Below, in pieces: positions 1,614 through 18,311 of a stretch of DNA of 21,028 nucleotides. Every line of letters starts with the position of its first letter. The first letter of the stretch is position 1. The stretch covers positions 1 to 21,028 of IMG/VR virus record IMGVR_UViG_3300008050_000404. One strand, written 5' to 3'. The stretch is from a virus. Below the pieces are notes generated by a model. It was not told the DNA's origin, made no database searches, and was given only the letters and a program-made list of their open reading frames with translations. The translations under genes and the position numbers were made by a program.

Positions 1614-2439
1614 CAATTATATCTCCCCATATATCAACATCACCTGTGTTACTACCAAAGGTATGAAAAGTAATTCCTGCTGTATAATCAGAACTGTCTG
1701 AAGAAGCACCACTCGGACCAGTAACACCAATCTCTATTAGAGAGGTTGCACCGCTAGTCAATCCTGCATCATAAGAAGTTTTGTTAAACATCGTAGCAAA
1801 GATATTTTTAATAACACCACTGGAAATTGTTCTTCCGTAAATATAACTTTTTGCAGTGAATCCTAAAGTCCAAGTTAAACTTCTTCTTTCTTCAAAATCA
1901 CCTTCCCATTCTTCTTCGTTTGTTACAGAATTCAAAATTAATGGAATGTCAACTTTCCTAACTAAACTAGTTGGATTTATGCTTACAGTAAATTCAGGAG
2001 TAAAGTAAGGTAAAATTTGTTCTACAATTTGTAAACCATCATCCATAAATTTTGTCATAATATATAAATTAAAATTAACATTATATGGAACTTCAGAATA
2101 AGAGTAAGTCATTTTATTGTCAGAATCTGATGATGCTTTCTTCTGAAACTTTTCCATAGTATTTCTTTTTCGAGGACTATCATAGTCAATAGATTCTATT
2201 TCGAAACTAATGCGAGGAAGAGTCATTGCAACTTCTCTTCCTTGGTCATCTCTGATAGAACCACCTTCTTCAATTCTTCGAAGATACTTTTCAGAGTTTC
2301 CATATGATAAAGGAACACGAATAGTATCTTTTACTGTAGTTCCATCTGACTGATATCTTTTAATGTGAATATTATTAAAAAGAGAACCGAAGGCTACTAC
2401 TAGATTTCTTAAAGAATCGTTTTTAAAATAAGTAAACAT
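1606..2439 (-). CDS. gp15: Tail terminator / sheath stabiliser, T4 gp15-like
   Basis: gp15 forms the hexameric ring that caps the tail tube and sheath and joins them to the neck. The 277-residue product matches the T4 protein (272). Family-typical segments visible are the N-terminal YFKNDSLRNLVVAFGSLFNN, a central basic stretch around 88-101, a strand/helix block with YIMTKFMDDGLQIVEQI (126-142), and the signature WEGDFEERRSLTWTLGFTAK (178-197) followed by GVIKNI. The C-terminal 50 residues are Gly/Ser/Thr-rich. The ATG overlaps the gp14 stop as TAATG. A perfect GGAGG (2450-2446) sits 6 bases upstream, so this is a strongly initiated gene. gp16 follows with an overlap. The assignment is firm from sequence and order. 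Confidence 0.94.
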   Translation of the reverse strand: MFTYFKNDSLRNLVVAFGSLFNNIHIKRYQSDGTTVKDTIRVPLSYGNSEKYLRRIEEGGSIRDDQGREVAMTLPRISFEIESIDYDSPRKRNTMEKFQKKASSDSDNKMTYSYSEVPYNVNFNLYIMTKFMDDGLQIVEQILPYFTPEFTVSINPTSLVRKVDIPLILNSVTNEEEWEGDFEERRSLTWTLGFTAKSYIYGRTISSGVIKNIFATMFNKTSYDAGLTSGATSLIEIGVTGPSGASSDSSDYTAGITFHTFGSNTGDVDIWGDIIGE

Positions 2440-3281
2440 TAGTAACCTCCATCACTAAACGGGTCAATATCAGTAAAGTCGAATATATCATCTGCATCTC
2501 TTTGTATATCATCAGAATCATCATATGGGTCAGTTGGAATAATAACCGCATCGGATATTGCCGAGTAGCCAACAAATACAGCAGTTGCACCAGAATCTGT
2601 TCCTGTTATTGTAACACCACCAGATAAAGAACCGACAACATTATGAATATCAATAACTCTTGTAGATGGTTTCCAAGTAACTACATTGGCAGACCAACCT
2701 GTTGCTGTAACTGGTTCGCCTGGAACAAATGTTCCGCTAGGGGTAGACACTGATAGACTAACAACAGTCTCTTGTTGTACATCTTCAAACTTATCAATTT
2801 CATCCCAACCAGTTTCGATATCTTCTTGACTGTACTGGAAGAGTTCACAGGAAAGTTCGTATGTGTAAAGTTTACCTACTTGATAAAATGGATTTTCGTG
2901 TTCGACAAATTTAATTTCAAACAAACCATTGGTGAGAGGAAAGTAAATCAAATCTCCTTCTAATGGTCTTGTCATTGCCAATTCTTGTTCAAATCTTTTC
3001 TTAGCAACGACTAACTTCATACTATCTTTTATTTCTAAACCAAACTTAGAGATAAAATCACCATCTCCCTCAAACCCATCTACATTTGAAATATACATTT
3101 CAAGTTCAGTACCACCTGTAAATCCTGAAATGGTATCTTCGCCAAATAATTCGTCTTTATTAACAATATTTCTAGGAAGATATACCATATCCTGACCATG
3201 TATCTGGATAGCCTCTATGGTCAGGTCTTCAACGATTTTTTGTTCGTTGTTGGTGTGTTTGAAGAATGGATTTTTTGCCAT
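2439..3281 (-). CDS. gp14: Neck protein, T4 gp14-like, with a C-terminal beta-rich extension
   Basis: gp14 completes the neck (connector) of the filled head so that the tail can attach. It is 280 residues, against 256 in T4. Residues 1-155 carry the family pattern: MAKNPFF start, DMVYLPRNIVNKDELFGED (31-49), FGLEIKDSMKLVVAKKRF (80-97), GDLIYFPLTNGLFEIKFVE (109-127), and NPFYQVGKLYTYELSCELF (130-148). From about 170 to 245 there is a compact beta-strand module (VTWKPSTRVIDIHNV, GVTITGTDSGATAVFVGY), then an Asp-rich tail ending in DPFSDGGY. Similar Trp-Pro/Gly-rich modules appear in gp8 of this window. An AGGA ribosome site lies inside the end of gp13, 3 bases upstream, implying coupling. gp13 and gp14 act together in the known T4 neck. 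Confidence 0.93.
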   Translation of the reverse strand: MAKNPFFKHTNNEQKIVEDLTIEAIQIHGQDMVYLPRNIVNKDELFGEDTISGFTGGTELEMYISNVDGFEGDGDFISKFGLEIKDSMKLVVAKKRFEQELAMTRPLEGDLIYFPLTNGLFEIKFVEHENPFYQVGKLYTYELSCELFQYSQEDIETGWDEIDKFEDVQQETVVSLSVSTPSGTFVPGEPVTATGWSANVVTWKPSTRVIDIHNVVGSLSGGVTITGTDSGATAVFVGYSAISDAVIIPTDPYDDSDDIQRDADDIFDFTDIDPFSDGGY

Positions 3282-3284
3282 TTT

Positions 3285-4034
3285 TTATCCTACTATAAAA
3301 CCAGGCGGTTCTTCAAATTTCACTTGCATTTCTTCTTCAAGCCTTTGAACTTCTTCGTTTGCTTGGTCAAAAATTTGTTGTCCGTTAAAAGATACTCCGC
3401 CTGGTAATTGAATATTTTCAAACTTAGATAAATTTGAACCCCATTGTCTTTTAAATACAGCAGTCACATATTGTTTTAATAACCTATCATCGTAAACTTT
3501 TGTAAATTCTTGAGGGTCAATTACTACCCACGCTTCAAGTGCAATAAATTCGCCTTCGTTGATTTTCTTCGACCAGTCCATATCAATATACAATCTTTGT
3601 GTAGTTCTAGTGAATCTAAAAGATTTTGCAGGGTCTATCATTTGTTGAACCATTGACATATTTTGACGAATCAACATATAGTTTGTCATTGTGCCACCAC
3701 TATGCCAACCATACCAATCGTTTAATGCAATCTGATATTGCAAATCAAACATATTGCTTGACATAGTACTGAATTGAAATACATCAGAAATACTTAAGAC
3801 AGAATCATCAAGTGCAGAAATATCAATATATCCGTTAGTTATATCATCAGCCGTGACAGCATGTGATAAGTATAGTTTTTCCGCACCATCATAATGGTAA
3901 TCCGCAAAGAATTGTAATGCATCGTCTATTCGGTCCTCTAATTGAGAATCGTCTACATTAATATCTATTACAGGATATCCAAGTCTGCGGAGAGCGTAGT
4001 CTTTTAACGCCTGTCTGGTTGTTGGTTTAGCCAT
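3285..4034 (-). CDS. gp13: Neck protein, T4 gp13-like
   Basis: gp13 forms the neck ring below the portal vertex that seals the packaged head and receives gp14 and the tail. At 249 residues it is shorter than T4 gp13 (309). Family-like segments are LKDYALRRLGYPVIDINVD near the N-terminus, RIDDALQFFADYHYDGAEK (32-50), the Trp/Tyr-rich centre, the tract FRFTRTTQRLYIDMDW, and the C-terminal KQYVTAVFKRQWGSNLSKF leading to a glutamate-rich helix (NEEVQRLEEE). The ATG at 4034 has a strong AAGGAG ribosome site 10 bases upstream. The 52-base gap before it is the longest in the window. It contains a candidate late promoter and a hairpin that would cover this ribosome site on longer transcripts. gp14 follows after 3 bases. 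Confidence 0.94.
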   Translation of the reverse strand: MAKPTTRQALKDYALRRLGYPVIDINVDDSQLEDRIDDALQFFADYHYDGAEKLYLSHAVTADDITNGYIDISALDDSVLSISDVFQFSTMSSNMFDLQYQIALNDWYGWHSGGTMTNYMLIRQNMSMVQQMIDPAKSFRFTRTTQRLYIDMDWSKKINEGEFIALEAWVVIDPQEFTKVYDDRLLKQYVTAVFKRQWGSNLSKFENIQLPGGVSFNGQQIFDQANEEVQRLEEEMQVKFEEPPGFIVG

Positions 4035-4041
4035 ATAGCAG

Positions 4042-4077
4042 TCTCTCCTTTTCTATAGTATATATAAGACGGAGAGA
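4042..4077 (-). promoter_or_regulatory. Hairpin covering the gp13 ribosome binding site
   Basis: On the minus-strand transcript UCUCUCC (4077-4071) pairs perfectly with GGAGAGA (4048-4042). This gives a 7-bp stem (4 G-C, 3 A-U) with a 22-base loop. The 3' arm contains most of the AAGGAG ribosome site of gp13. The candidate late promoter TATATATA (4066-4059) lies in the loop, so a transcript starting just after it would lack the 5' arm and leave the ribosome site free. T4 genes e, soc and 49 are known to use this design to block translation from early read-through transcripts. Applying it here is inference. Confidence 0.55.
4059..4066 (-). promoter_or_regulatory. Candidate late promoter before gp13 (TATATATA)
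   Basis: TATATATA differs from the T4 late-promoter element TATAAATA at one position and is preceded by TT on the minus strand. It sits 24 bases before the gp13 ATG, inside the largest gap of the window. The transcription start would be expected about 5 to 8 bases downstream, just before the ribosome site. T4-type late promoters need only this element, recognised by gp55, with no -35 box. Confidence 0.5.
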
Positions 4078-4086
4078 TATATTGGA

Positions 4087-4470
4087 TTATTGATATGTAA
4101 GTACTTCTGTATAATCATCCAAAAGATATGAAATTTCGTCTAAATCTTTAGCGGAAATAGAGCAATGCTCTCCCAACGCACTTATTTTTAATTTTTCGAA
4201 AGTTACAGTAATTTCGGGGGAGAGAGCAGTTTGTAGCATTTCAACGAACTGCTTTTTTTGCTCATTATCCATTTCAAATACCCCATCTTCTGTCTTACTG
4301 CTATAATTTTCTAATAATTCATTCTGAATATTTTCAATTTGTAGAAGGTGCGGGTTTACTTGGTCTATAAATTTTTTAATTTCTATAGTAGTTTTGATTG
4401 GTAATGCTTGGTCTAACAGATTTTTAAATACAGGATAAGAGCGATATAATTTTTCATATGTTATTTTCAT
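4087..4470 (-). CDS. Unknown 127-residue protein, possible -1 frameshift partner of the preceding gene
   Basis: The product is 127 residues, helical, acidic and without membrane segments. Its layout is helix-rich 1-45, then an EDGVFEMDNEQKKQFVEML segment, then a strand/helix C-terminus (ISAKDLDEISYLLDDY). This layout reminds me of small uncharacterised phage proteins of the DUF1617 type, but I cannot confirm that. The ATG at 4470 overlaps the upstream stop as ATGA, with GGAG 9 bases ahead. A longer frame opening at TTG 4485 is disfavoured because the GGAG would lie inside it. The in-frame codons just before the ATG (AAA AAA CAA) would be read if ribosomes slipped back one base at the A AAA AAC heptamer at 4479-4473, joining this protein to the upstream one. 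It ends directly before the gp13 promoter gap. Confidence 0.72.
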   Translation of the reverse strand: MKITYEKLYRSYPVFKNLLDQALPIKTTIEIKKFIDQVNPHLLQIENIQNELLENYSSKTEDGVFEMDNEQKKQFVEMLQTALSPEITVTFEKLKISALGEHCSISAKDLDEISYLLDDYTEVLTYQ

Positions 4471-4964
4471 TTGTTTTTTCTCCAATTACCACGAAATTTC
4501 TCTCTTTTTTTTATTAGTTTTTTCATTTCGATTACTTCTTTTTTATTATCAATATCTTCAAAAAGATGTTCCCACATTAGATGTATCATACTTGATATTC
4601 TATAAAAATTATCATCTTCTTCATTATAGTCTAAGTCGTTTTTATTTTCCATTAACGATGCGACTTCATCTACATATTTTTCATCTTCTTCTTCTGTTTT
4701 TTCCAATAACCTCATATCATTGCCTCTCTTAACATACCGTTCACCTTCCTTCCAAGGAAATTCCCCTTCTATTTGAGATGAGCCAGTATATAAAATATGT
4801 TTTTCAGAAGAAACATATTCTTGCCCAATACAACCTTTGGGTAACTTGTACTCTGGTTCGACTTTTTGAAATATTTCTAAATCAAAAATACTTTCATTAC
4901 CACGGTTATCAGTGATAATGATATCATTAGAGGGAGTATGTAAAAATTTTCTTCGATGATTCAT
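4467..4964 (-). CDS. Unknown 165-residue protein downstream of the fibre genes
   Basis: I do not recognise a characterised family. The N-terminal half has a compact pattern: PSNDIIITDNRGN (11-23), LPKGCIGQEYVSSEKHILYT (41-60), and GEFPWKEGERYVKRGND (67-83). Short conserved-looking blocks of this kind (LPxGxxxxxYxxxxxH, EFPWxxGxxY) remind me of unannotated proteins near fibre genes of marine phages. The second half is charged and helical, with a Lys/Arg-rich end (RKNK). It has its own late promoter (4997-4990) and an AGGAA ribosome site before the ATG at 4964. Its position right after three fibre or spike genes would suit a fibre or tail assembly helper, but that is a guess. The last codons AGA AAA AAC AAA TGA contain a phased slippery heptamer. 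Confidence 0.75.
   Translation of the reverse strand: MNHRRKFLHTPSNDIIITDNRGNESIFDLEIFQKVEPEYKLPKGCIGQEYVSSEKHILYTGSSQIEGEFPWKEGERYVKRGNDMRLLEKTEEEDEKYVDEVASLMENKNDLDYNEEDDNFYRISSMIHLMWEHLFEDIDNKKEVIEMKKLIKKREKFRGNWRKNK
4473..4479 (-). other. Candidate -1 ribosomal frameshift site A AAA AAC
   Basis: Read in the frame of the 165-residue gene the codons are AGA AAA AAC AAA TGA, so the heptamer is phased as X XXY YYZ. A one-base slip back leads into CAA ATG AAA, the frame of the next gene, with no stop between. The stop of the 0 frame is one codon further on. GGAG (4483-4480) touches the heptamer; it also serves as ribosome site for the ATG at 4470, so simple re-initiation is the competing explanation. 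I see no clear downstream stem-loop. Confidence 0.35.
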
Positions 4965-4989: not shown

Positions 4990-4997
4990 TATTTATA
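4990..4997 (-). promoter_or_regulatory. T4-type late promoter TATAAATA before the 165-residue gene
   Basis: This is an exact TATAAATA on the minus strand. It starts the base after the TGA of the beta-helix gene and lies 25 bases before the ATG at 4964. AGGAA, the likely ribosome site, follows it. It is one of only two exact minus-strand copies I found, and both are in gaps between genes. Confidence 0.7.
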
Positions 4998-7290: not shown

Positions 7291-7298
7291 TATTTATA
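7291..7298 (-). promoter_or_regulatory. T4-type late promoter TATAAATA before the beta-helix gene
   Basis: This is an exact TATAAATA on the minus strand, 19 bases before the ATG at 7271 and 4 bases after the TAA of the collar-fibre gene. AAAGGT follows as the ribosome site. Its position in one of the few true gaps supports a real promoter rather than chance in AT-rich DNA. Confidence 0.7.
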
Positions 7299-12517: not shown

Positions 12518-12717
12518 TTATTGGTCCTTGGTAATACTTCTTTTAGTAATGACTTAATTTCGTCAAGTTCTTTTTCAAGTCGTTCTATTTTTCTTTCTTC
12601 GAGTGCCCGTTTATTAATCTCATCATATTCATTTTTGTTATTATTTAGTATAGCATTAGAGCGTATATCTCTAAATAAATGTTTTTCACCTTCTACTCTT
12701 ATTTTATTATTTATCAT
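12514..12717 (-). CDS. Small coiled-coil structural protein, 67 residues
   Basis: The product is a charged 67-residue protein. An N-terminal segment HLFRDIRSNAILNNNKNEYD (13-32) is followed by a continuous heptad-like helix rich in Glu, Lys and Leu (ERLEKELDEIKSLLKEVL). Small proteins with a similar FRDxxSxAIxN lead and coiled coil recur in T4-like marine phage structural clusters as far as I remember; none has a role I can name. It overlaps both neighbours by ATGA (start 12717 with the end of the DUF4815 gene; stop at 12514 with the fibre ATG). It is therefore translated in step with them and may help join the fibre to the baseplate. No good ribosome site of its own was needed or seen. Confidence 0.8.
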   Translation of the reverse strand: MINNKIRVEGEKHLFRDIRSNAILNNNKNEYDEINKRALEERKIERLEKELDEIKSLLKEVLPRTNK

Positions 12718-15700
12718 CCTTCTGGTTGTCCGTCATCAGTTTCTTCGCCTGTTACAGATAAGTTTGCTAATAAAACCGCCGGCGCTAAGTTCGTGTCCCA
12801 AAGAGAATATGTTTTCATTTTTCTTACTTGTGGAATATCACTTTTTGTTTCGTCGCCTGTTAATACTATTTTGGTAATGAAAGATATGAATCCGTGGTCA
12901 ATGGTTAAGTCATCGTCTTGATATGACCATCTATATTCATAAAAACTCTTTTCTCCAACAGAAGCAGGGTTTGTGTGTTCTTCTGGTGTTAGTTCAATCC
13001 ATTCTTTGTTGTTGATTATTCTTTCATTTTCTCTTAGTAATTTAGCATAAACTTTTACATTAGTACCATAAGGTTTAGAGGCTTCTAACTTAACTTTTAA
13101 TCTATTACCTCTGGTATCCATCCTTACTTGTTTACCAACATATCTTGCCATTCCTTTAGTATTATCTGTAGGGGCGGCAGACTTTTCTTCGTCCGTTGTG
13201 TTTATTGACATTTCATATTTGCCGGCAACAACACTCAATCTATCCATATCTACTACTGGTGTAATATTTTCATCATCTGTAGATAATGATGCTGTTACCA
13301 GTGGATTATTATAATCACCTATATCATAAGTATTTCTTTTTGATAATCTCAAAGAAGTGTTTGGCATCATTTCAACCATATTATTAGAATCTTGGATTTG
13401 ATATTTTACTTTTGAAGCAGGGTCTTTAATATATTCTGCCATTAATGAAACTTCATGTGCATCGGGAGTTGATATAACAGCACCATCAGCATTAGTAGTA
13501 TCAGCAGTATTTCCAACAAGATACAAAACACCGGCGTTGGAGTCTCCTATTGGATATTTTGCTCGGTTCACACGGAACATAAGATTTTTCATTTTATTTT
13601 CTGTTCTTGCACCGTTGTTTTGCGGTTCAAACATATTTCCAACATAAGGTTGTTTAGCAACATCGTTCAGTGTTGCTGTTCCATCAGCACTAAGACCTTT
13701 ACTACCAAATACTGATGACCATAGTTTATATTTTTTACTGTTTGTTTTACAAACAATTGCATATTCTCCAGGCTCTACAAATACTGGACTGGAGAAATTA
13801 AATTTACTAGCAGCCCCAGTAATTCCTGAAGGTCCATTTGCACGAACAGTAATATCACTTGGTTTTACTGAAACTTCAGATAATGGAATTGAAGTTGTTG
13901 GATGAGGAACATTATTTTGAATTGGACGAAGATGAAGTTGGAATGGTACATCTTTATCATCTTTTGCTTGGAAAAATAATTCTACATTTGTAAGGAATAC
14001 CCCTCTTGGGAATTTCTCAGAATCAATAGTGAATTTTTGAGCCATTGGGTCAAAATAATCTGCAACATTACTAAGAACTTGTTTCTTGCTTGTAGTTTGA
14101 GCATCTTGTGTAATTCTTTCTTTCTTCGCACTATCTCTTTTTGCAAGAATTTCTCTTGTTGATGTGATTTTTTCATCAACGCTCTTGACATTTCCGTTAA
14201 CAATATAAAATGCTTCTGCAACTGTAGTTGTTTTAGATGGAGAATTTATTTTTGAATCACAAACTCTGATTAAAATTTTCCCTGCACGATATTTGCTGTT
14301 TTTTGGAATTTGTAGAACTACTGTTGCATTACCGTTTTCGTCTGTTCTTCCGTGGTTAGTTTTTGATTTTACATAAGCAACACCAATACTACTTGAAATA
14401 GTACTGTTTGTGTTTACCTTTGTTCCGTCAACAAAAACATAATATTTACTTTTTGGTCGCATTCCTGTAATGGTAGCAGTAATTTCTCTTTCTCTAACAA
14501 AAGGAACAACACCTTTATCAACTATTCTACCTTTTAATTGTTCTTTTCTGGAATTTTGATTAATGTTATTATGAGATAGTTCAGATAATCGTTCTTCACC
14601 ACTGCGATATTTCCACCATCGTTTATCTACCGGTCTTTCTCTTACCACACCCAATTGATTAGTGGGAACTTTAAATCTATTTCCCATAAATTGCCTAGTT
14701 ATTTTTCTTGGAACATTGTGTCTGGTATTTCCAATCCAATTTCTAAACCACCAGTTGTGTATACCGCCCCAACCATTTCTAATTCCTTTATTTTTCTTTT
14801 TTTGTCGAATTAAGAACGGGTCTTTAGAACCATCGACATTACTTAAAACTGTTGGGTTTCTTGTTGTGTCAATCCAATCGTCTGATGATGGGCTTAATGT
14901 CATAGTACCTACCCAGTTTGATTTTTCAAACGGATTTGCACTAACAGCAACATTAGCATCTAAATTGTTTACTGTTGATATATCTCTTGATATAGGTTCT
15001 AGTGTGAAAATATTATTGGTTGAACCTGTAACACCACTGGATACTGCTAATGGAGATTTTACCAAATTAACATTAGTAACAGATTGTGAAGGTTTTAATA
15101 TTGAATTGTCTGGGTCTATTGCTATATTATGGTCTGGATTGTCTATGTCTGCTGATTCTGTATTTTGAAAAGAATCTACTACCATAGCATTCAAGAATAC
15201 TTTATTACCATATGCTTCAGATTGAATTTTTGCATCAATCTCACCAATACTCAATTGTGTAACTTCTTCTAATTTAGTTACTCTTTCGTTTATTTCTCCA
15301 ATTTGTTCCATAGTAAATCTTTGATTATCAATATATTCTGCTGATACATCATCTGGAGTTGTAGTATAGGCATTCCAATACAAAACATATAAAACCATTG
15401 CTTCTTCTGGATTATGTTCTGGAGGAAGTGGTGTTCTGCCTGGAATTCCTTCTAATATTTTAAACTCTCTGTCTTTTGTGAGTACAAGTTTATCAATTCT
15501 TGGCAGATAATGGCTATAGTCTGCAAAGAATAATTTTCCATCTTGCGGTGTATAGACACCACGAAGTTGTCCTGCATCTGAATTTGCAACATCCCAACCA
15601 CCAACTTTCATTGGTCTAAAGTCAATAACATCACTAAGTTTTATAGTTTCCCCAGTATCGGGATTAGTATAAGATGGAATATAATTATATGTTGTTAATT

Positions 15701-18311
15701 CTGTTGGTTCTGCCCACCAATCAGTAGATTCCTGAACGAAGGTTGCTGTCTTTCCACCATTGTCAAAACTTTTAACTTCGTGGTCGCTGTGCGTATATGA
15801 ACTTACAATCGATGGGAAAATTACTGTACTATGGTCTGATGTATCAAAACCAGTTTGCATTCTTTGATGGTCGAAATACAAGAAAGTAACTTTAAACCCT
15901 GCGCCTGATTCTGCCCAGGCACCATTAGGACCTCCTGTACCGCCTGGCTGACCTGGGTCTAGTGCAACACTACCAAAGTCATACATTGATGGTCTTTGTC
16001 CATTATCTAAGGTAAACATACCAGTAAAATCAGTATTTGTTCCTAATTCTGTTACTGATTCAATCATAAATATATCAGAATACCCTAGATTAATTCCCCT
16101 ACCATCATAAAGATATTTATTCCACATAGTAGTAGAATTATCTGCGTTAATATTATTTGTGATGGTTGCAGTATGTCTCTTTAATACTTTCTTTCTGTAG
16201 TATTTGTTACTTTTAACTTCATCGTCGTGATTGTTTCTTAAATTTGCAACCAACAACCCTGTCTTTGTACCAGTCCAAGAATCCGAAGCACCCGAACCAA
16301 TTTCTACTTTTATGGTTCTGTTGCCATCTTGTGTTGTTAGGGTATTCCCCCCATAATCACCTACAGAGTTTGTACTCATATCAAACAGATATCCATCTAC
16401 TGAAACCAAATACTCGTCTAGATTTGTAACATCATTAATAACACTATCTAAATTTCCTTGGAAGAGAGAACCTTCGGAACTAGGAATTGTTGCGGTTGCA
16501 GTCCACGCATCACCAATTTTGGTAAGTTCAAGTTCATAATCATCTTGGATATAATAGTCCAATCCTGTAATTTCTTTTACTTGTTCGCCTTCTGGAACTT
16601 TAAAGAGGAGTTCTGTTTCTCCCTTCTCATAAAAATCTAGTCCTTCGCCATCAATTCCTTTATATATTTTGGCAACTTGTTTACTGGTTGCAGGGTCTGT
16701 TAAATATTCAATATCTTTTATCGTTTTCAAATCGTATTCAGAAGAAAATCCTGCCCGAGTACCAAAACGAATATCATTTAAATAAAATCTATAAAGAACA
16801 CCTACTCCACCATCACCCTGTCCAATAGAATCTCTTGCAATCTGAGAAATTCTAGCACAACCGACAGGTTCAAGAAAACCAGAGCCTGGGTCAAAACTTA
16901 AATATACTTTTTTGTATGTTTTGCCAACTATTTGTTTGGAGGTATTCTCATTGAACATAAATCCAGCCTCTCCTCTAAAGAGAGGGCTTACTCCATCCAT
17001 ATTGTGTTCAACCAAAATATAATTACCAAGGTTTACATCAACTAGTCGGTCATTCCACGATTGAGTGGTCCTTGCTTTTTTACCAAGAACATGTTCTGTA
17101 TTTTGTAATTCAAATTCAAACCCACGAACATATGCTTTTCCTTGTTCCATACCAATTGCAAGATAGTCGTATGGGTCCATTCTTCCTGTATCTTTAGGAT
17201 TCCATACCTCAGTATAATCTTGCGAATTGATTCCGAATGGCACCACTGTATAGTGACCAGATTCGTCATATGTTCTTCTTGCAAGGGTTTCTTCTAGTTT
17301 GGCGTATTCTGGATATTTTAATTTCTTAAAGGTTTGTCCTTTAATGATTCTTGCAAATTCAAAATAATTTTCTGTACTAAAATCTGTTCTATATCCCTGC
17401 TCATCAAAAATATATACAATCTGACTAATCTTGAGGTCTACAATATATCTGTCTGCGCCAGGCGCATTATAATTATAATTTCCCTGCGAAGGGTCTTTGA
17501 GAGTCGGGTCAGATTCTGCTGTTGCAATTTCCCTATTGATACTAAATCCGACAGAACATGTTCGTAGTTCTGGATAGAATATTCTTATTCCTTCTATTTC
17601 TTCAAATATAGCGAGAGATTGTGCATCATTTAAAACAAAGTTTCCGTTTATATAAAATATTCCTTGGTCGATAGAGATAAGGATACATTCAGTGTTACCT
17701 ACGGTGGATTCTTCTGTGGAATTATTATTATTAACAATTTGAGCGTGAGATGAACCATCGTAATGTGCAACAGTTAAACTTACATTAAGCAGAGGATTTG
17801 TTGAAACTATACTACCTGTACCATCAGGAAATGATATTGAGTCGTCTTGCGTTCCCTTTATAATTTCAACGAATAAAACAGGATATGGGTCGGTCGATGT
17901 TGGTTTTATTGCGTGAACAACTCTTGCACTAACAGTGGTTTTTAGTCCTGATAGTGGGTCTGTAGTTCCTTCTGAGTCATCTTCATCTATTGTTTCTTCT
18001 ATGGTGTGTGTATATTCAATTTCATAATTTATCAGTTGAGTATAATCAAATGAAGTACTTAGATATGGATTTAATCGTAAAGCAGTAAGTCTTCTTTCTG
18101 TTATACCACCACCTTGTACTACATCTCCGTCTTCGAAAATATGGTCGCCAAACCTTCCTATTTGATTATTAAGAATACTTTGAAGTTGTGTTAATTCTCT
18201 TGCTTGTAATGCTTGACCTGGTTTAAAAAGTACCTGTAGGAATTTCTTCTCTTCGTCAAAGTCATCGTAGTAAGGTGGTATATTAAATCTAGATTTTTTG
18301 TTTACTGACAT
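12714..18311 (-). CDS. Giant DUF4815-type virion structural protein, probable baseplate wedge component
   Basis: At 1865 residues this is the largest gene here. The N-terminus carries the DUF4815 pattern: NIPPYYDDFDEEKKFLQVLF (10-29), GQALQARELTQLQSILNNQI (32-51), GRFGDHIFEDG, APGADRYIVDLKIS (283-296) and EETLARRTYDESGHYTV (339-355). After about 1100 residues there is a Trp-rich basic stretch (WGGIHNWWFRNW, about 1181-1192). An Ig-like beta domain starts near 1265 (REREITATITGMRPKSKYYV). A conserved-type C-terminal block begins DPMAQKFTID (about 1421), with GVFLTNVELFF and EPGEYAIV. The protein follows gp8 by 4 bases. In T4 this place holds genes 9, 10 and 11, and gene 7 (1032 residues) lies before 8. 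A wedge or rim role fits size and place but is inference. The next gene overlaps by ATGA. Confidence 0.85.
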   Translation of the reverse strand: MSVNKKSRFNIPPYYDDFDEEKKFLQVLFKPGQALQARELTQLQSILNNQIGRFGDHIFEDGDVVQGGGITERRLTALRLNPYLSTSFDYTQLINYEIEYTHTIEETIDEDDSEGTTDPLSGLKTTVSARVVHAIKPTSTDPYPVLFVEIIKGTQDDSISFPDGTGSIVSTNPLLNVSLTVAHYDGSSHAQIVNNNNSTEESTVGNTECILISIDQGIFYINGNFVLNDAQSLAIFEEIEGIRIFYPELRTCSVGFSINREIATAESDPTLKDPSQGNYNYNAPGADRYIVDLKISQIVYIFDEQGYRTDFSTENYFEFARIIKGQTFKKLKYPEYAKLEETLARRTYDESGHYTVVPFGINSQDYTEVWNPKDTGRMDPYDYLAIGMEQGKAYVRGFEFELQNTEHVLGKKARTTQSWNDRLVDVNLGNYILVEHNMDGVSPLFRGEAGFMFNENTSKQIVGKTYKKVYLSFDPGSGFLEPVGCARISQIARDSIGQGDGGVGVLYRFYLNDIRFGTRAGFSSEYDLKTIKDIEYLTDPATSKQVAKIYKGIDGEGLDFYEKGETELLFKVPEGEQVKEITGLDYYIQDDYELELTKIGDAWTATATIPSSEGSLFQGNLDSVINDVTNLDEYLVSVDGYLFDMSTNSVGDYGGNTLTTQDGNRTIKVEIGSGASDSWTGTKTGLLVANLRNNHDDEVKSNKYYRKKVLKRHTATITNNINADNSTTMWNKYLYDGRGINLGYSDIFMIESVTELGTNTDFTGMFTLDNGQRPSMYDFGSVALDPGQPGGTGGPNGAWAESGAGFKVTFLYFDHQRMQTGFDTSDHSTVIFPSIVSSYTHSDHEVKSFDNGGKTATFVQESTDWWAEPTELTTYNYIPSYTNPDTGETIKLSDVIDFRPMKVGGWDVANSDAGQLRGVYTPQDGKLFFADYSHYLPRIDKLVLTKDREFKILEGIPGRTPLPPEHNPEEAMVLYVLYWNAYTTTPDDVSAEYIDNQRFTMEQIGEINERVTKLEEVTQLSIGEIDAKIQSEAYGNKVFLNAMVVDSFQNTESADIDNPDHNIAIDPDNSILKPSQSVTNVNLVKSPLAVSSGVTGSTNNIFTLEPISRDISTVNNLDANVAVSANPFEKSNWVGTMTLSPSSDDWIDTTRNPTVLSNVDGSKDPFLIRQKKKNKGIRNGWGGIHNWWFRNWIGNTRHNVPRKITRQFMGNRFKVPTNQLGVVRERPVDKRWWKYRSGEERLSELSHNNINQNSRKEQLKGRIVDKGVVPFVREREITATITGMRPKSKYYVFVDGTKVNTNSTISSSIGVAYVKSKTNHGRTDENGNATVVLQIPKNSKYRAGKILIRVCDSKINSPSKTTTVAEAFYIVNGNVKSVDEKITSTREILAKRDSAKKERITQDAQTTSKKQVLSNVADYFDPMAQKFTIDSEKFPRGVFLTNVELFFQAKDDKDVPFQLHLRPIQNNVPHPTTSIPLSEVSVKPSDITVRANGPSGITGAASKFNFSSPVFVEPGEYAIVCKTNSKKYKLWSSVFGSKGLSADGTATLNDVAKQPYVGNMFEPQNNGARTENKMKNLMFRVNRAKYPIGDSNAGVLYLVGNTADTTNADGAVISTPDAHEVSLMAEYIKDPASKVKYQIQDSNNMVEMMPNTSLRLSKRNTYDIGDYNNPLVTASLSTDDENITPVVDMDRLSVVAGKYEMSINTTDEEKSAAPTDNTKGMARYVGKQVRMDTRGNRLKVKLEASKPYGTNVKVYAKLLRENERIINNKEWIELTPEEHTNPASVGEKSFYEYRWSYQDDDLTIDHGFISFITKIVLTGDETKSDIPQVRKMKTYSLWDTNLAPAVLLANLSVTGEETDDGQPEG

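Follow-up and report, generated by a model that had tools for sequence, protein, structure and literature searches.

In the 21,028-base virus record IMGVR_UViG_3300008050_000404, which was analyzed over its full length (hereafter the window), the leader of the neck gene gp13 contains a hairpin that is predicted to hide the Shine-Dalgarno (SD) sequence of this gene and carries a late-promoter motif in its loop. We consider it likely, with a probability of roughly 64%, that this leader represents an RNA switch that depends on the site of transcription initiation and insulates the neck block from late transcripts originating further upstream. The proposed switch would act in cis. In RNA entering gp13 from upstream, nucleotides 4077-4071 would pair with nucleotides 4048-4042, thereby hiding the SD sequence and impeding the binding of 30S subunits. 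RNA initiated at the gp55-type late promoter within the loop (predicted +1 at ~4053) would lack the 5' arm, leaving the SD sequence open for translation. Expression of gp13, and probably also of gp14 and gp15, would then be dependent on the late promoter of gp13 itself and not on the transcripts of upstream tail-fibre genes, and the hairpin may serve to insulate this conserved neck block translationally from the variable module located upstream. The pairing, its specificity for gp13, its conservation and the presence of a late sigma factor in close relatives are borne out computationally, whereas the transcription start, the repression as such and its purpose are inferred.

Anatomy and predicted fold of the gp13 leader

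The gp13 gene (3285-4034, minus strand, with its ATG at 4034) encodes a head-tail adaptor Ad2/neck protein of 249 amino acids (phrog_211). Its leader contains a perfect 7-bp inverted repeat on the same strand, whose 5' arm (TCTCTCC, 4071-4077), an anti-SD sequence beginning ~10 nt past the stop codon of the upstream open reading frame (ORF), is separated by a 22-nt loop from the 3' arm (GGAGAGA, 4042-4048). The latter overlaps the SD sequence of gp13 (AAGGAG, 4045-4050, minus strand), which is located 10 nt from the ATG. RNAfold returns exactly this 7-bp stem as the minimum free energy structure of the segment 4086-4034 (-11.3 kcal/mol, z -2.16), with 4 of 200 shuffled sequences reaching the same stability, and finds no stable structure left in RNA that extends from 4052 or 4050 onward (-1.8 kcal/mol).

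The loop harbors the motif TATATATA (4059-4066, minus strand; local consensus TATA[AC]ATA), which differs from the T4 late-promoter consensus by a single letter. In T4, the late motif spans positions -13 to -6 (PMC1524935). Applied to TATATATA, this rule predicts a late transcription start at ~4053 on the minus strand, which would lie beyond the entire 5' arm and five bases ahead of the 3' arm. Exact copies of the late promoter, TATAAATA, are found on the same strand at 4990-4997 and 7291-7298, 25 and 20 nt ahead of ORFs of 165 and 757 amino acids, respectively. In related contigs, the TATA[AC]ATA (TATAMATA) motif is mostly, if not overwhelmingly, confined to the gp13 strand, i.e., the late strand. 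The gene for the late sigma factor gp55 is present in four relatives of the window lineage (contigs G004, G006, G007 and G010), with the window itself representing a 21-kb fragment.

The extent to which the promoter-upstream arm hides the SD sequence can be expressed as a difference in opening cost (ddG). For each late promoter, the cost of opening the SD sequence was calculated for RNA that takes in the 28 nt preceding the motif, and the corresponding cost for RNA beginning at the predicted start was subtracted. For the window gp13, the computed cost drops from 10.0 kcal/mol for read-through RNA to 0.1 kcal/mol for late RNA, yielding a ddG of 9.9 kcal/mol; the cost on late RNA amounts to 2.3 kcal/mol when a longer downstream context is included. 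The two exact TATAAATA promoters lack an SD-hiding hairpin, with ddG values of -1.0 (165-residue ORF) and 0.9 (757-residue ORF). A previous sequence-only reading of this DNA had placed the repeat, the SD sequence and the loop motif at precisely these coordinates, which the minus-strand sequence confirms. Its proposals that read-through RNA would conceal the ribosome-binding site (RBS) and that late RNA would escape agree with the predicted folds, and its assignment of the imperfect loop motif to the T4 late type is strengthened by the two exact copies nearby and the strand bias in relatives.

Among shuffled 28-nt 5' segments, 0.6% match the ddG of the window. Under laxer null models, 4.4% of 28-mers taken at random from genomic sequence and 8% of dinucleotide shuffles pair equally well with the SD side of the window, the shuffles being a weak null for a CU-rich arm. 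Thus, a CU-rich arm opposite a purine-rich SD sequence is not rare by itself. As a single locus, the window hairpin is only moderately unlikely to occur by chance, and its weight comes from conservation.

Conservation and specificity of the hairpin

The same arrangement recurs in the gp13 leaders of nine phages of the window lineage with protein identities as low as 56%. Both the arms and their spacing differ among these leaders. Relatives of the window gp13 in IMG/VR reside on contigs at 97, 89, 83, 80, 80, 77 and 77% identity and on two more at 56-58%, whereas the nearest isolates share only ~40-45%. In the window-lineage leaders, a pyrimidine arm ahead of the promoter pairs over the SD sequence, although the letters, bulges and distances vary. 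The pairing is present in the window and at loci L002, L003, L005, L006, L008, L010 and L022, and weakly so in L007, with arms such as CTCCtCTTTT/AAAAGGGAG (L005), CCTCTTGTC/GACaAAGAGG (L008), ACTCCTTA/TAAGGAGT (L010) and CTTCTC/GAGGAG (L022). The branch of the gp13 tree that includes the window also contains L013 and L019 (ATGCTCC/GGAGCAT), L020 (CCGTTCGCT/AGCGAACGG) and L041 (TCTCCT/AGGAGA). A second branch (B), comprising ten loci whose gp13 is ~45% identical to that of the window, features stems of 9-13 bp and down to -26 kcal/mol. These stems are of the AAACTCCAGTCAT/ATGACTGGAGTTT type, with TATAAATA in the loop; L118 still pairs, with an arm that is ~14 nt more distant from the promoter. 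Descriptively, the hairpin loci form two clades on the gp13 tree, which includes only loci with a nearby late motif and carries hairpin labels that were set by eye from the folds, weak ones included.

Relatives of the window lineage without a late motif (L009, L011, L012, L014, L015 and L017) also lack the hairpin, as does L102, whose motif is non-standard. No such gp13 hairpin was detected in phiM12, Cr30, DLP_6, Syn19, P-HM1, P-TIM40, S-CAM1 or HTVC008M, and Mosig gp13 shows at best a weak AU-rich hairpin. The device is likewise missing from HTVC008M and from four gp13 loci with an upstream gene in the opposite orientation, which accords with a role in insulation, although this group is too small to prove anything. 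The exact 38-nt pattern has no match in IMG/VR. At L136 and L140, ~25-50 nt ahead of gp13, a different hairpin (AAGCCAT/ATGGCTT) overlaps the late motif CATAAATA and ends before the SD sequence.

The effect is specific to gp13. In the window lineage, the nine gp13 leaders have ddG values of 2.0-9.9 kcal/mol, whereas 24 further late genes from these contigs range from -2.3 to 3.4 kcal/mol (Mann-Whitney P 1.4e-5, with no correction for kinship among the nine, which are not phylogenetically independent). A ddG of at least 4 kcal/mol, a threshold picked after the T4 values had been seen, is reached by 24 of 64 gp13 leaders; among the other late genes from non-T4 phages, 2 of 50 reach it (Fisher P 9.6e-6). 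After dereplication at 65%, the threshold is reached by 7 of 16 gp13 leaders (median P 6e-4). A rank test of all gp13 leaders against all non-T4 late genes gives a weaker signal (P 0.019), because the device is missing from most gp13 genes that do not belong to the two branches. Moreover, in dereplicated gp13 leaders, the native 5' segment pairs better with the SD side than segments swapped in from other leaders (median P 0.0035-0.007). Late genes other than gp13 do not show this effect (P 0.16 including T4, 0.47 excluding T4). It is thus very improbable that a pyrimidine tract simply happens to lie near a purine-rich SD sequence: the laxer nulls would allow this for the window alone, whereas the recurrence of the pairing with changed letters, its absence from the 24 further late genes analyzed on these contigs and the outcome of the segment swaps argue against it.

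The only other non-T4 late genes above 4 kcal/mol are two genes of Methylophilales phage Melnitz-3 (L169), a portal gene and a gene of 189 codons, which are preceded at ~32008 and ~37552 by SD-hiding pairings whose loop encloses a late motif (ddG 6.1 and 8.1). Other late genes show further structures. In the window lineage, a late gene for a protein of 192-210 amino acids is preceded by a strong terminator-like hairpin and, directly after it, the late promoter TATACATA (L086 ~4403, L088 ~4891, L091 ~4668). At L089 ~18616 (contig G006 ~38616), the late promoter of a gene for a 217-residue protein is enclosed by CTCC/GGAG pairing, which is missing from the apparent counterpart of this gene in G007 (38728).

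Several observations weigh against the proposed switch. The sequence-only reading had named the loss of pairing at a preserved ribosome-binding site as evidence against itself. In this respect, the relatives give a mixed picture: most homologs keep the pairing, but L007 retains both the motif and the SD sequence with a weak pairing that is no better than chance, and L005 and L006 do not surpass composition-matched shuffles. Within either branch alone, the comparison of native and swapped segments yields P values of 0.06-0.08. Compensatory changes between the arms, also envisaged in that reading, amount to one double change (U-A to C-G) that L029 shows against L061, with a U-G intermediate in L050; a column-shuffle covariation test on branch B did not reach significance, as the SD side is under constraint and can hardly vary. 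The branch B alignment underlying this test (A4), with hand-placed arms and the loop exchanged for the shared motif, leans towards structure. The arms were misaligned in a MAFFT alignment of the window-lineage leaders because their spacing changes, so that no pairs were counted on it.

A further difficulty concerns ribosomes that terminate on the upstream ORF. The 5' arm reaches, or comes close to, the edge of such a ribosome, so that coupled translation could open the hairpin. If so, ribosomes completing the upstream ORF would make the yield of gp13 from read-through RNA proportional to that of the upstream protein. The upstream stop codons are indeed situated 13-23 nt ahead of the motif at all nine window-lineage loci, and in L007, L008, L010 and L022 the 5' arm would fall within the footprint of a terminating ribosome. 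In the window, however, the arm begins ~10 nt past the stop codon, roughly where a terminating ribosome ends, and L013/L019 as well as several branch B loci possess the hairpin without a close upstream stop codon. Overall, we regard coupling as improbable.

Upstream transcripts and alternative explanations

A role of the hairpin in insulation depends on the nature of the RNA that reaches gp13. On the minus strand of the window, which carries T4-type late genes, tail-fibre/collar and structural ORFs are followed by gp13, the gp14-like head closure gene Hc2 (2439-3281), which starts 3 nt past gp13, the gp15-like tail sheath stabilizer gene (1606-2439) and a small-terminase-like ORF. Read-through would come from the adjacent ORF on the same strand (4087-4485), which belongs to phrog_1401 and has no known function. 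The genes upstream of gp13 on this strand are of the tail-fibre/structural type, and two of them are equipped with exact late promoters. A scan for sigma-70 promoters returned sites at chance level and thus did not reveal an early or middle promoter. Given structural genes with late promoters, chance-level sigma-70 sites and no intervening terminator, the transcription that reads through into gp13 is probably itself late. The upstream region also contains a terminator-like 10-bp hairpin with a T-rich tail within the start of the 165-residue ORF (4894-4921, minus strand) and a structural ORF of 1865 codons with a DUF4815 domain (12714-18311, minus strand), whose position is comparable to that of giant genes in phiM12 and HTVC008M that carry a VrlC-like annotation.

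This setting bears on the most prominent of the competing explanations, which we rank in the order timing, coupling, chance, termination and DNA operator. As in the case of T4 gene e, the same hairpin and promoter could keep early or middle RNAs that extend into gp13 silent until late transcription sets in. Exact parallels for such timing exist in e, soc, 49, I-TevI, segB and mobE (PMC3014915, PMC2988022). However, the T4 cases are found on early or middle polycistronic RNAs, whereas the genes upstream of the window gp13 are structural and have late promoters, and sigma-70-like sites do not exceed chance. We therefore consider timing rather unlikely, and the suggestion of the sequence-only reading that neck synthesis is held back until the late phase finds no support. 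Insulation of the 13-14-15 genes fits the data at least as well as timing.

The hairpin could also act before translation. As an intrinsic terminator, it would end upstream transcription ahead of gp13, in line with the TTTTT that follows the branch B stems of L061, L056 and L072 and with the terminators located immediately before gp13 in RB49 and S-BM3. In the window, however, the 3' arm lacks a T-run, no terminator-like site was found between 4087 and 4034, and the 22-nt loop is long. Termination is highly improbable, and we rejected it for the window, where the combination of a GC-rich stem and a T-run is missing. Alternatively, the symmetric repeat around the promoter could be a protein-bound DNA operator, similar to the operator over its own late promoter that is bound by I-TevI (PMC2988022). 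A protein site would not explain why L005, L008, L029, L050 and L118 maintain a pairing of the RNA type that includes bulges, G-U pairs and altered letters. This explanation, which we consider extremely improbable, was also rejected for the window on the basis of the RNA-type pairing in relatives.

Returning to the start-site-dependent switch, it is tempting to extend it beyond the window, although we regard the following generalization as tentative and somewhat doubtful. In two T4-like lineages, gp13, as the first gene of a conserved neck-terminase block, may have kept a promoter-in-loop hairpin while its letters turned over. Rather than as an early/late timer, this element would serve as a translational insulator between the variable tail-fibre genes and the neck genes, providing an RNA-level equivalent of the terminators in RB49 and S-BM3.

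Comparison with known systems

By its predicted properties, the gp13 hairpin is a T4-type RBS-sequestering hairpin that is bypassed by an internal late promoter and placed on a neck gene: the SD sequence is paired on long RNA, the promoter lies between the arms, the SD sequence of the late RNA is accessible, and the pairing is kept in relatives, albeit weakly in L007. An RBS-hiding leader with late-promoter bypass is documented for T4 e and I-TevI (PMC3014915 section 29, PMC2988022 section 12), in support of the likeness drawn in the sequence-only reading. As a control, the ddG analysis was applied to 20 late promoters of T4, where I-TevII, e, 51, 26 and segB ranked as the top five; e, I-TevII, segB and 26 are reported to be regulated by structure (PMC3014915, PMC2988022). 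The cost of opening the SD sequence with and without the promoter-upstream arm thus provides a simple computable signature, which recovers known T4 cases and is applicable to thousands of phage genomes.

The mechanism itself is already known from T4; gene 13 as its carrier is new, and we found no report of the device for this gene in the full text of open-licence papers. The device is familiar from a small number of T4 genes (lysozyme, soc and homing endonucleases); our analysis extends it to a core virion-assembly gene of uncultured T4-like phages and suggests that the job of this device can be to insulate one late operon from another. The lysozyme gene e resembles the window gp13 in that its RBS is hidden on long transcripts and open on late ones (PMC3014915), with a ddG of 11.9 as compared to 9.9. 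However, early RNAs carry e, whose silencing averts premature lysis, whereas the window gp13 follows late-type structural genes. In T4 I-TevI/I-TevII and segB and in Aeh1 mobE, the late promoter is similarly placed such that the late RNA lacks the 5' arm (PMC2988022), but these genes encode homing endonucleases within early or middle units rather than an essential virion protein. The leaders of T4 26, listed as structure-repressed (PMC2988022), and 51 also hide the SD sequence on read-through RNA, with ddG values of 8.3 and 9.1, and harbor a late promoter in the loop. Unlike gp13, they belong to baseplate hub genes sharing one near-palindromic promoter region, a divergent arrangement located at L184 ~1453-1457 (NC_000866 ~116453-116457). 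Finally, gene 13 of T4, RB49 and S-BM3 is likewise separated from its upstream gene by a structure, a GC hairpin in T4 and terminators in RB49 and S-BM3. What distinguishes the window from these phages is that its hairpin hides the SD sequence and encloses a late promoter.
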